From a virus, in IMG/VR virus record IMGVR_UViG_3300020406_000390, positions 1-41,066 of that record: a stretch of 41,066 nt of DNA; one strand, given 5' to 3'. Shown piece by piece: positions 1,532 through 35,687 of this stretch. The notes beneath the pieces were generated by a model, which saw only the letters and a list, made by a program, of their open reading frames with translations, had not been told where the DNA came from and did not search any database. How positions within the stretch are numbered: position 1 is the first letter of the stretch; every line of letters starts with the position of its first letter. The position numbers and the translations under genes were made by a program.

Positions 1532-1544
1532 ATGACTAAAAAGG

Positions 1545-1572
1545 TTGACAGATTCTATAATAATGCTATTAT
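1545..1572 (+). promoter_or_regulatory. Sigma70-like early promoter (AGGTTGACAGATT cassette, copy 1)
   Basis: TTGACA at 1545-1550 and TATTAT at 1567-1572, spacer 16. The surroundings AAAAAGGTTGACAGATTC and leader AGTTAAATAAACAGGAGAAAA are nearly identical to those around 2985. Confidence 0.8.
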
Positions 1573-1606
1573 TATAAAGTAAGTTAAATAAACAGGAGAA
1601 AACATT

Positions 1607-1972
1607 ATGAACAATAAATTAAAAGATGGTGTTTTGCAAGTAATTGAAACAATGAAGCAAGACTATATTAATTGGTCTACACAAAACGGTAAAAAGCCGT
1701 TAAGTGGTTATCATAAAGATGTTATTGATAACTGGAACATTGAAATCCATGAAGGTCAAAAGTACATTAAACTTGTTAAGAAAGACCACAAAAGTTCATT
1801 TGGTGGTGGTAGTGTTAATGGGTTTATTGTTAAAAAGCCAACAAAAGGTTTTGTAGAAGGTGATATGCTTAAAGCGGCAAGTTATAATATGCCTGCAACA
1901 AACTTTAAAAGAGGTAATGTTTTTGATGATGCTAATAATGGCACTATTGCACGTTGGACAGGAATCGGTTAA
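1607..1972 (+). CDS. Hypothetical phage protein (121 aa)
   Basis: Not recognised. The protein has an amphipathic helical N-terminus (about residues 3-25) and a central glycine-rich patch (SSFGGGSVNG, about residues 64-73) between beta-like segments. AGGAG at 1593-1597 precedes the ATG by nine bases. It is the first gene of an early operon that continues, with overlapping stops and starts, into the HD hydrolase, a 64-aa protein and an Smr-domain protein. Its leader is shared with the 119-aa gene at 3047, suggesting co-regulation, but I see no clear sequence similarity between the two products. Confidence 0.65.
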   Translation: MNNKLKDGVLQVIETMKQDYINWSTQNGKKPLSGYHKDVIDNWNIEIHEGQKYIKLVKKDHKSSFGGGSVNGFIVKKPTKGFVEGDMLKAASYNMPATNFKRGNVFDDANNGTIARWTGIG

Positions 1973-32880: not shown

Positions 32881-32911
32881 AAAAAGGGGCGGTTTTATAT
32901 CGCCCTTTTTT
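32881..32911. terminator. Bidirectional terminator
   Basis: AAAAAGGGGCG / CGCCCTTTTTTT with a loop of about nine bases, one unpaired G, and T runs readable on both strands. It separates the rightward winged-helix gene from the leftward synthetase-like gene ending at 32911. Confidence 0.85.
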
Positions 32912-33732
32912 TATGACTGAGTATCTAATGCTGAAATCATTCTAGTCATTCCAATACCACCGCCCACTCTTGGCATAAAATCAAATTCTAAAAACTTTTC
33001 TAGTTCTGCTTCAACTCTTTCTTTAGAAAACAATTTGTAAAGTAGTTGACTATATTCACCGTTTGTGATTGTGTGAAAAGTATCTCGCATTTGTTCTATG
33101 TCAGTAGATCTTTCTGCAGAACCAATAGTTTCCATTCCGCCTAGTATTACGTCAATTTTTTTACTTGTTCCATCATCTCTTCTGCTCATGTTCCAAAAAG
33201 GTGATGTCATTTCTGGAAAGTCAGTAATCATAGTACTTCCATAATCTTCAAACATTTTAGTTTCATGCTCTGCATTCATTTCAACATTATGTTCAATTTT
33301 AAAATAATCTTGCCATGCTTTGTAAGTCATTTCAGTAGGTTTATCAAATCTTAGAAATTCACATAGTTCGTATTCCATTTCTTTTAGATCTTCTATAGTT
33401 CCTGGCATTTCAAATTCAAACATTGGAAATATTATGTCGTGTCTACCTGGTATTGCATTAGGCTCTTGTCTATATGAAGTCGAAACACAAAAGAAACCTT
33501 TTGAATTAGGCTTACTTAATAGTTCATGTTCTAGCCACATCTGCCCAGTTTGTGGTAAGGGCCATACTTGACCTGCATAATTGTAGGTTGCAACATTAAA
33601 TGGATCTTCACAAGCGGCTAAAATGCTTAATCTGTTTTGAGTGTGTACTTCATCAAAACCTTTATCCAAAAAAAATGACCTTAAAAGGCCAACTGTTTTA
33701 GTAAATTTTGTAGGGGATATTAATTGTGTCAT
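32911..33732 (-). CDS. Class II aminoacyl-tRNA synthetase-like catalytic domain (AsnRS/AspRS type) without anticodon domain
   Basis: 273 residues made only of a class II catalytic core. Motif 2 reads FFCVSTSYRQEPN...RHDIIFPMFEFE (R88, E90, R97, H98), an Asp/Asn-type middle reads MITDFPEMTSPFWNM, and motif 3 is VGGGIGMTRMI (Arg264). There is no OB-fold anticodon-binding domain. Known stand-alone relatives are archaeal asparagine-synthetase-like AsnRS paralogues and EpmA/GenX-type lysine ligases. The IGGME...SAERSTD stretch leans to the Asp/Asn group. It probably makes an aminoacyl-adenylate and transfers it to ammonia, a protein or a small molecule. It lies downstream of speD in a leftward operon. 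Confidence 0.8.
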   Translation of the reverse strand: MTQLISPTKFTKTVGLLRSFFLDKGFDEVHTQNRLSILAACEDPFNVATYNYAGQVWPLPQTGQMWLEHELLSKPNSKGFFCVSTSYRQEPNAIPGRHDIIFPMFEFEMPGTIEDLKEMEYELCEFLRFDKPTEMTYKAWQDYFKIEHNVEMNAEHETKMFEDYGSTMITDFPEMTSPFWNMSRRDDGTSKKIDVILGGMETIGSAERSTDIEQMRDTFHTITNGEYSQLLYKLFSKERVEAELEKFLEFDFMPRVGGGIGMTRMISALDTQS

Positions 33733-33818: not shown

Positions 33819-34259
33819 TTATTTAGAAAGTATTGAATTTGTGGCTTCTACAATTTCAGGTATTGTAAATGATTGTGATGATGGTTTATTAACAGGTATT
33901 TCAGTTAAGCCAAATTCTCTATCAATATATTTGTAGTCAATTTTTGTAGGATTAAATTGTTGTAACCAATTAAATACAGTCTCAGGTTGAAATTCTCCAC
34001 AAGTATATACGTCTAGTTGTACTAAAGCAGGAACAGATTCGTCCCAACTATGCATTACTACATGACTCGTTTCAATAATAGTTGCAACAGTTAGTCCTCT
34101 ATTGCCTTGCATATCACAATATTTGGCAAAAGGGCCTATAAGTATTTTCATACCCAACTGGTCTATCAATTTTTTTACGTTGTCACACGTTTCAAATTCT
34201 GCTTTTGGTGGATTCAGAACTTCTGCTCTGATGATGATATGCTTATGTACCAAAGTCAT
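33819..34259 (-). CDS. speD: S-adenosylmethionine decarboxylase proenzyme-like
   Basis: 146 residues. ATIIETSHVVMHSWDES carries the serine (Ser65) that in prokaryotic SpeD becomes the pyruvoyl group after self-cleavage, with His70 and Cys87 (LDVYTCGEF) at the positions of the other conserved catalytic residues. The enzyme makes decarboxylated SAM for spermidine synthesis. In a phage, polyamine supply could help neutralise packaged DNA (inference). No spermidine synthase is in the window. It is read leftward with three small upstream genes and the synthetase-like gene downstream. Confidence 0.85.
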   Translation of the reverse strand: MTLVHKHIIIRAEVLNPPKAEFETCDNVKKLIDQLGMKILIGPFAKYCDMQGNRGLTVATIIETSHVVMHSWDESVPALVQLDVYTCGEFQPETVFNWLQQFNPTKIDYKYIDREFGLTEIPVNKPSSQSFTIPEIVEATNSILSK

Positions 34260-34886: not shown

Positions 34887-34915
34887 TTTGTACCTTATTT
34901 GGTTGACAATGTCAA
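34887..34915 (-). promoter_or_regulatory. Candidate divergent early promoter (minus strand)
   Basis: On the minus strand, TTGACA (34915-34910) is followed after 17 bases by TACAAA (34892-34887). Its -35 overlaps that of the plus-strand tmRNA promoter within the palindrome TTGAC-AAT-GTCAA. Confidence 0.5.
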
Positions 34916-34931
34916 TCGTTTTTGTTATAAA
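34903..34931 (+). promoter_or_regulatory. Sigma70-like promoter of the permuted tmRNA gene
   Basis: TTGACA at 34903-34908 and TATAAA at 34926-34931, spacer 17. The predicted start of about 34938 coincides with the first base-paired nucleotides of the tmRNA acceptor piece. Confidence 0.8.
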
Positions 34932-34937
34932 TATATA

Positions 34938-35000
34938 TGAAACGTTGAAGCAATTCAAAAGATAGGCTGGACCCGAGTGCAATTCTCGGCACCTCCACCA
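34938..35000 (+). ncRNA. ssrA: tmRNA acceptor piece (3' half of a two-piece, circularly permuted tmRNA)
   Basis: The segment ends CACCTCCACCA with encoded CCA at 34998-35000. The T arm is CCGAG-TGCAATT-CTCGG (5-bp stem, 7-base loop). The 3' acceptor strand CACCTCC pairs with GGGGGTG at 35348-35354 (seven pairs, one G-T). ATTCAA (34953-34958) can pair with TTGAAT (35373-35378) and GAAAC (34939-34943) with GTTTC (35391-35395), giving the helix that joins the two pieces. The 5' end is inferred from the promoter. It comes before the coding piece, as in alphaproteobacterial permuted ssrA genes. Confidence 0.88.
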
Positions 35001-35016
35001 AATTCAAGAGGGTACA

Positions 35017-35343
35017 ATGGATTTTGTAAGAAAAAATATTGGTTGGTTCTTACTAGCAATACTAGTTTTTGGTATAGTAGTTAGTTGGGGCGATGAAGAT
35101 AGTTGGATATTTTGGCTTATTATTCCTGTCGTACTTTGGAAACTGCCACCGTTCAGTGTAAGCAAAAGAGTATTTGGCTGGGCGGCAAGTAAAGACCCAA
35201 TGGGTACAAAAAAGGCAACTGCTAAATTTATGAAAGGCAAGCCTTGGTACTATTGGGTAATATATACTGTAATCATTTGGGCAGTAATGAGTGCATTAGT
35301 AAGTTTACTATCTGGTACACCAACACTGGTGCTTATCGGATAA
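35017..35343 (+). CDS. Small membrane protein encoded inside the tmRNA intervening segment (108 aa)
   Basis: Three hydrophobic stretches: about residues 8-23 (IGWFLLAILVFGIVVS), 29-43 (SWIFWLIIPVVLWKL) and 77-97 (PWYYWVIYTVIIWAVMSALV). Between the second and third is a basic loop (SVSKRV, TKKATAKFMKGK). AGAGGG lies five bases before the ATG. The gene begins 17 bases after the CCA of the acceptor piece and its stop ends four bases before the coding piece, so it fills the spacer that must be cut out of the pre-tmRNA. It must be translated from that precursor or from a separate message. The function is unknown; holin/antiholin or superinfection roles are only guesses. Confidence 0.75.
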   Translation: MDFVRKNIGWFLLAILVFGIVVSWGDEDSWIFWLIIPVVLWKLPPFSVSKRVFGWAASKDPMGTKKATAKFMKGKPWYYWVIYTVIIWAVMSALVSLLSGTPTLVLIG

Positions 35344-35347
35344 TTAT

Positions 35348-35657
35348 GGGGGTGATTTAGGATCGACAGGTATTGAATAGAATCTGTGGAGTTTCCGGTA
35401 GGCGATGACCGTAAATCAAGCAAACTTTTAAATGCAAACGATAATTTTGCAAATGAGGAATTTGCCTTAGCGGCGTAATTCTTCGGGGTTGGCAACGTAC
35501 CTAGCAACAGAAACCGTTGCATCTATAATAAGCAACTGTAATAATAGAGTTGGCAACTTGTGGAATAAGCCGCCACATTTACATTACATAGTACTTACTA
35601 ACGGCAGTAAGACGAATATTAACATATAGGATAAGAGAACAATAAAGAATTTGACAG
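35348..35657 (+). ncRNA. ssrA: tmRNA coding piece (5' half, with proteolysis tag)
   Basis: Begins GGGGGTGATTTAGGATCGAC, the usual tmRNA 5' acceptor/D-arm region. The tag frame starts at GCA 35434 and reads ANDNFANEEFALAA, ending TAA. With the charged alanine the tag is A-ANDNFANEEFALAA, ending in the LAA degron seen by ClpXP-type proteases. Pseudoknot-like hairpins flank the frame (CGGT...ACCG before it; GCAAC-AGAAACC-GTTGC and TGTGG...CCACA after it). The exact mature 3' end is not determinable; the listed end is the base before the terminator. The matching acceptor strand is at 34990-34996. Confidence 0.9.
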
Positions 35658-35687
35658 CCCTCGGAGAAATCCGGGGGTTTGTTTTTT
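35658..35687 (+). terminator. Rho-independent terminator of the tmRNA transcript
   Basis: CCCTCGGA / TCCGGGGG (8 pairs, one G-T) around a GAAA tetraloop, followed by TTTGTTTTTT. Confidence 0.9.

Follow-up and report, generated by a model that had tools for sequence, protein, structure and literature searches.

A membrane-protein gene nested between the two halves of a phage permuted tmRNA

Results

Anatomy of the locus

The window, the whole stretch of DNA analysed here, is a 41-kb virus record (IMGVR_UViG_3300020406_000390, positions 1–41,066) that carries T4-like replication genes encoding a UvsW-type helicase, a DnaB-type helicase and a ribonucleotide reductase. It also contains a permuted (two-piece) tmRNA, a form reportedly described in Alphaproteobacteria by Keiler et al. 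in 2000, and a protein gene, a member of what we call family A, lies between the two pieces (Table 1). Rfam covariance models match the RNA at 34939–35478 (RF04321, 106.7 bits, cut-off 47) and, with the alphaproteobacterial model, at 34891–35521 (RF01849, 96.1 bits, cut-off 50). In both the window and the related loci L001–L003, Rfam joins the acceptor piece and the coding piece as one permuted tmRNA spanning the spacer. An earlier sequence-only reading of this DNA had proposed a two-piece tmRNA with an acceptor piece ending at 35000, a coding piece from 35348 and a tag, and had suggested a covariance-model search; both halves are matched, and the sequence and Rfam agree with the proposed boundaries. 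The tag, ANDNFANEEFALAA, ends in a degradation signal of the LAA type. Thus, as far as sequence comparison goes, we regard a two-piece tmRNA with a nested protein gene as confirmed in the window. ARAGORN, run on the window, did not recognise the tmRNA with its nested gene. Two minus-strand genes lie beside the tmRNA, one for a class II tRNA-synthetase-like protein (PF00152, 273 aa, 32911–33732) and one for an AdoMet decarboxylase (33819–34259), a neighbour that is conserved in relatives.

Table 1. Features of the window and of the loci compared with it. Positions refer to the window unless another locus is named.
Feature	Position	Strand	Basis or remark
TTGACA −35-like element within palindrome TTGACAATGTCAA	34904..34916	+	Kept in family-A loci and L133
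TATAAATA, T4-type late promoter box	34926..34933	+	Conserved in all family-A loci and L133
tmRNA acceptor piece, encoded CCA at end (34998–35000)	34939..35000	+	RF04321 and RF01849 matches
T-stem	34973–34977/34985–34989	+	Joined-piece structure count
Acceptor stem, 3′ strand	34990–34996	+	Joined-piece structure count
Spacer (intervening segment), 347 nt	35001..35347	+	Boundaries from sequence and Rfam
Shine-Dalgarno AGAGGG of nested gene	35007..35012	+	Sequence; relatives have an AGGAAG-type SD here
Nested gene, 108 codons, predicted three-segment membrane protein, family A	35017..35343	+	Homologues, dN/dS, hydropathy
Acceptor stem, 5′ strand	35348–35354	+	Start of coding piece
tmRNA coding piece from G35348: tag frame, 3′ region; 3′ end approximate	35348..35650	+	
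Tag reading frame ANDNFANEEFALAA and stop	35434..35478	+	Sequence, Rfam
Terminator-like hairpin (35656–35679) and T run	35656..35687	+	Intrinsic-type
Melnitz sORF, runs into coding piece	L338 (Melnitz EXVC044M, MZ577097.1), spacer 1539–1680		
Marine phage operon: CsgF, CsgG, curlin-repeat, FecR, family-A protein, CHASE2-guanylate/adenylate cyclase	L126 399–7356; L132 226–7394		

The nested ORF takes up 327 of the 347 nt of the spacer (94%), with 16 nt before its start and 4 nt after its stop, so the earlier picture holds, in which a 108-codon gene and its ribosome binding site occupy almost the whole spacer. The Shine-Dalgarno (SD) sequence begins 7 nt past the CCA end, and the stop falls 4 nt short of the coding piece. 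When the spacer was simulated 20,000 times with a first-order Markov model, an ORF at least as long appeared once; the median was 33 codons. Hydropathy reveals three hydrophobic segments, in keeping with the three-helix membrane protein predicted earlier; AlphaFold, given an 8-member alignment, returned a low-confidence model (pLDDT 54), and neither Pfam nor PHROG gave a match.

A single promoter and a single terminator were said to bracket the set, and sequence elements of both kinds are in place. TTGACA (34904) is followed after 16 nt by TATAAA, which overlaps TATAAATA and forms the −10 of a sigma70-like site; the hairpin at 35656–35679 closes the unit, and L003 and L130 carry hairpins of different sequence at that position. 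The window has six copies of TATAAATA, each on the plus strand. By the T4 late-promoter spacing rule, transcription would start at about 34939, where the RF04321 match begins, and the promoter is probably of the late type. A simple promoter scan, which demands T at position 6, did not list the 34904 site. The palindrome TTGACNNNGTCAA at the −35 region (34904–34916), which every family-A tmRNA locus and L133 share, may be an operator.

The nested gene is constrained as protein and the RNA as structure

Family-A homologues occupy the same tmRNA position in five viral contigs (L001, L002, L003, L130 and L131), and all examples of the family are metagenomic contigs. The sequence-only reading had called for a comparison of relatives and of dN/dS; the gene proves conserved in all five, with dN/dS of 0.11–0.47 between pairs of in-tmRNA copies. 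Third codon positions make up 75 of the 150 variable positions, copies differ by codon-sized indels (12 nt and 6 nt), and the SD is kept among relatives, a pattern that indicates purifying selection on the nested gene.

Do the two halves of the tmRNA still pair around it? We joined the pieces of the window, L001, L003, L130, L131 and L133 and counted a 27-pair structure, in which 98.1% of cells pair across the six loci. Five pairs had changed on both sides, a number reached in none of 500 shuffles, and slid partners gave none. The acceptor stem is 100% paired and contains two of the double-changed pairs, C-G to U-A (L001, L130 and L131) and A-U to G-C (L133); two others lie in the outer inter-piece helix and one in the T-stem. 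Because double-changed pairs occur in helices that close across the gene, the tmRNA halves appear still to pair around it, and the seven-base acceptor stem and inter-piece helices that had been drawn by hand gain support from compensatory changes. All ten gene-bearing loci tabulated, from divergent phages, retain 7/7 acceptor pairs and intact tags with LAA ends. With coding constraint on one side and compensatory changes in the closing helices on the other, both the protein and the RNA layers look functional.

Folding of the whole precursor was less informative. The minimum-energy fold of the 749-nt molecule did not form the acceptor stem, folds this long being unreliable, and whole-precursor folding gave no consistent answer as to SD masking. 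An anti-SD-like pairing between CCUC in the acceptor piece and GAGG in the SD was dropped, as conservation does not extend past the SD.

An empty allele and stand-alone copies

Contig L133 has nearly the same tmRNA at the corresponding locus, but only 74 nt separate its two pieces and they contain no gene. Its neighbours match, with an AdoMet decarboxylase and a 67-aa gene upstream and the same gene downstream. Gene-free spacers in relatives, together with an absence of coding constraint on 35017–35343, had been named beforehand as a sign against the proposal. A relative with such a spacer exists; given the strong coding constraint, and with both tmRNA halves matching the models, it marks the gene as optional cargo and not as non-coding. 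The T-arm and acceptor stem of L133 differ from those of L003 as a block, which suggests that recombination within the tmRNA exchanged this block.

The family-A gene also stands alone in L125, L126 and L132, immediately 5′ of a CHASE2-cyclase gene, and in L126 and L132 it comes after CsgF, CsgG, curlin-repeat and FecR genes. A curli cluster of this type is known in pelagimyophages (PMC7029224). The L001 and L003 phages carry the curli cluster too, on contigs that end before the expected place of the family-A gene. Because of these stand-alone copies in a curli/CHASE2 operon and the empty spacer of the sibling L133, the nested family-A gene looks like captured cargo. The family-A tree is compatible with one or several captures (AU p 0.24).

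Unrelated genes occupy other tmRNA spacers

We compared spacer lengths in 76 unique viral loci with an acceptor piece followed by a coding piece. The spacer measures 1–179 nt in 67 of them, in line with the earlier statement that permuted spacers are normally short; it measures 347–368 nt in five, which are the family-A loci, and 441 nt in two (L118 and L157), and two with more than 1500 nt are probably spurious pairings. Shortness is thus a usual but not a defining trait, and the window tmRNA, at 347 nt, lacks it. About 90 strong RF04321 matches in 299 Pseudomonadota genomes span 185–332 nt (the model has 213 positions), a control that speaks to the usual length only, because strict filters would split long-spacer matches.

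The L118/L157 spacer holds two ORFs, for a DUF6356 protein and for a one-helix membrane protein (family B), and none of the ten differences between the two spacers alters either protein. Relatives of family B were found at 44 loci: (i) alone within the tmRNA spacer, with fitted SD and stop, in 13 contigs (L296–L304, L308, L318, L330 and L331); (ii) directly 3′ of the tmRNA in 15 contigs; and (iii) 5′ of it in L295. In-spacer changes are mostly silent, with 25 silent and 5 replacement changes between L318 and L331, and the family-B tree requires two or more changes of location, in directions that it does not fix. Neither the window DNA nor the family-A and family-B proteins had a match among cultured phages in similarity searches.

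The published tmRNA of the cultured OM43 phage Melnitz has in its spacer a 54-codon ORF that carries no annotation and is preceded by the SD GGAGAAG. This sORF family recurs in about 17 further contigs (within L341–L358); among its members, pN is lower than pS for the pairs that diverge more, and an indel of 24 nt keeps the frame. In L118/L157 and the majority of Melnitz-type ORFs the frame ends within the coding piece, and the window gene and most of family B have their stop inside the spacer; L354, a 36-codon member of the Melnitz family, also stops before the coding piece. Where the stop sits in the spacer, the ORF fills about 87–94% of its length. No similarity was detectable among family A, family B and the Melnitz sORF family, and because these three families are mutually dissimilar, genes seem to have been captured into tmRNA spacers at least three times.

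Other spacers showed features of their own. The spacer ends pair (TAAACAC with GTGTTTA type) in L118, L308, L338 and L133, which lengthens the acceptor stem and leaves any ORF in the loop; family A is without this helix. L033 and L150 have a 47-aa ORF in a 149-nt spacer, running into the coding piece, and a 110-nt spacer on the reverse strand of L107 has a 31-codon hydrophobic ORF with a GTG start that may be due to chance. In Sinorhizobium phage Phosso (L337, about 2033–2442) a permuted tmRNA has a spacer of about 410 nt that contains no annotated ORF and no convincing one, and that may be another structured RNA. Roseobacter phage DSS3P8 (L339, 545–978) has a GOLLD RNA (150.7 bits) followed by an unannotated permuted tmRNA.

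Discussion

What could such an arrangement do? We consider it probable that the locus is a functional two-piece tmRNA of the phage in which a captured membrane-protein gene has taken the place of the excised spacer, with a single precursor on which translation and maturation would be mutually exclusive. The sequences compared show how the locus is built, that its RNA halves pair across the gene, that the gene is constrained as coding sequence and optional, and that the arrangement recurs. We infer the single transcript, the processing sites and translation from the precursor, as follows. Split tmRNAs are cut by RNase P ahead of the coding piece, and 3′ processing trims them to CCA. One promoter, probably late, would yield a precursor with acceptor piece, gene and coding piece, and the hairpin would end the unit. 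RNase P at 35348 and 3′ processing to the CCA at 35000 would then excise the gene, and the two freed pieces would pair to give a tmRNA working with host SmpB, the nested gene being translated before excision, on the precursor, or afterwards, on the freed spacer. During initiation a ribosome would sit over the CCA end, and during termination it would hide the 5′ strand of the acceptor stem. Since both acceptor strands would be covered, translation and maturation should compete on one molecule and exclude each other.

The sequence-only reading held that processing would destroy the message. In the window, however, SD, frame and stop all fall within the excised segment, so that cleavage might just as well free an intact mRNA. 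Where the frame runs into the coding piece, as it does in L118/L157 and in the majority of Melnitz-type genes, cleavage would instead leave a stop-less message, and this message could be a target of the same tmRNA. A broader scheme, which we offer with considerable doubt, would make the spacer a gene slot: any one molecule would be either translated or matured, ribosome supply would balance membrane protein against rescue RNA, and the tmRNA would target its own run-in frames.

The same anatomy could be had without competition. We give slightly less than an even chance to the view that the spacer offers spare room in a compact genome, into which small genes from other parts of the genome fall and where they share the promoter, with no regulatory link between message and tmRNA; this view rejects only the competition step. 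The variety of occupants (at least three unrelated families), the tight fit of the ORFs (about 87–94% of the spacer), the positions of family B outside the RNA (downstream in 15 contigs, upstream in one) and the empty allele of the window locus all speak for it. However, start and stop flank both acceptor strands so closely that some physical interference is hard to avoid, and shared late-promoter expression may itself be the benefit. It is unlikely, in our judgement, that processing sets the fate of the message, with RNase P either destroying it or producing stop-less mRNAs that the tmRNA targets in an autoregulatory loop. The stops inside the coding piece of L118/L157 and most Melnitz-type ORFs are as expected from such a loop, but the window gene and most family-B genes end within the spacer, so that the excised RNA is a complete message, and L354 likewise ends before the coding piece.

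Could the insertion instead have broken the tmRNA, leaving a decaying pseudogene beside a live protein gene? The normal, gene-free spacer of the sibling L133 and the failure of ARAGORN on the gene-bearing form would fit, but we find this very improbable and already contradicted by covariation, as compensatory changes maintain the acceptor stem and outer inter-piece helix and as LAA tag ends and complete acceptor stems (7/7 pairs) persist across divergent phages. We give practically no credence to a chance frame or an assembly chimera, a reading already contradicted by the rarity of such an ORF in simulated spacers (1 in 20,000), by dN/dS well below 1 and by the same junctions in independent contigs.

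Our preferred reading, a working tmRNA around a captured gene, has partial precedents. In the E. coli thrU-tufB dicistronic tRNA-mRNA transcript, a stable RNA and a message likewise share one precursor, but there the parts lie side by side, whereas here the message is flanked by two RNA halves that must pair across it. The window RNA resembles alphaproteobacterial and phage permuted tmRNAs (RF01849, RF04321) in having the acceptor piece first, an encoded CCA, acceptor and inter-piece helices and an LAA tag; it departs from the usual form, with its short gene-free segment, in that its 347-nt segment is filled by a protein gene. It is also like the permuted tmRNA of Melnitz, a T4-like marine phage (PMC9004378), whose spacer has a conserved SD-led sORF as well, although that gene is a different, shorter one with a frame entering the coding piece. 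The searched passages of the Melnitz paper describe the two-piece tmRNA and a riboswitch and give no spacer ORF (PMC9004378).

A survey of 97,179 tmRNA sequences, 11,946 of them permuted, reports one tRNA-Ala gene and one repetitive element in permuted intervening segments and mentions no protein gene there; it mentions homing endonucleases in group I introns only (PMC11915505). The tRNA-Ala case, from one metagenomic genome, also nests a second gene in the same segment, but it is a single case of an RNA gene, whereas here protein genes of several families are found in many phages. The group I introns with homing endonuclease genes share with the window a protein gene in a segment absent from the mature RNA; they differ in being self-splicing, in lying in the T-loop and in carrying a mobile endonuclease, where the window has a processing spacer, no intron and membrane-protein cargo. 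A group I intron with a homing endonuclease was rejected for the window itself, where the T-loop is uninterrupted, no intron family matches and the ORF has no Pfam match. Our search of open-access papers found no earlier description of a protein gene in a permuted tmRNA spacer. Thus, tmRNA and its permuted form are already known, and protein genes repeatedly nested in the processing spacer, under selection, appear to be new.

In marine phages, then, conserved protein genes from three or more unrelated families can reside in the discarded spacer of a split tmRNA, and one of these phages, Melnitz on OM43, is cultured. The Melnitz record shows that annotation may overlook the nested gene, and the ARAGORN result for the window that it may overlook the tmRNA as well. 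A structural RNA whose two halves enclose a message would be a new kind of dual-function transcript, and the nested arrangement offers a direct system in which to ask how translation and RNA processing compete. If the broader scheme is true, ribosome supply would set the balance between a membrane protein and a ribosome-rescue RNA in marine phages.
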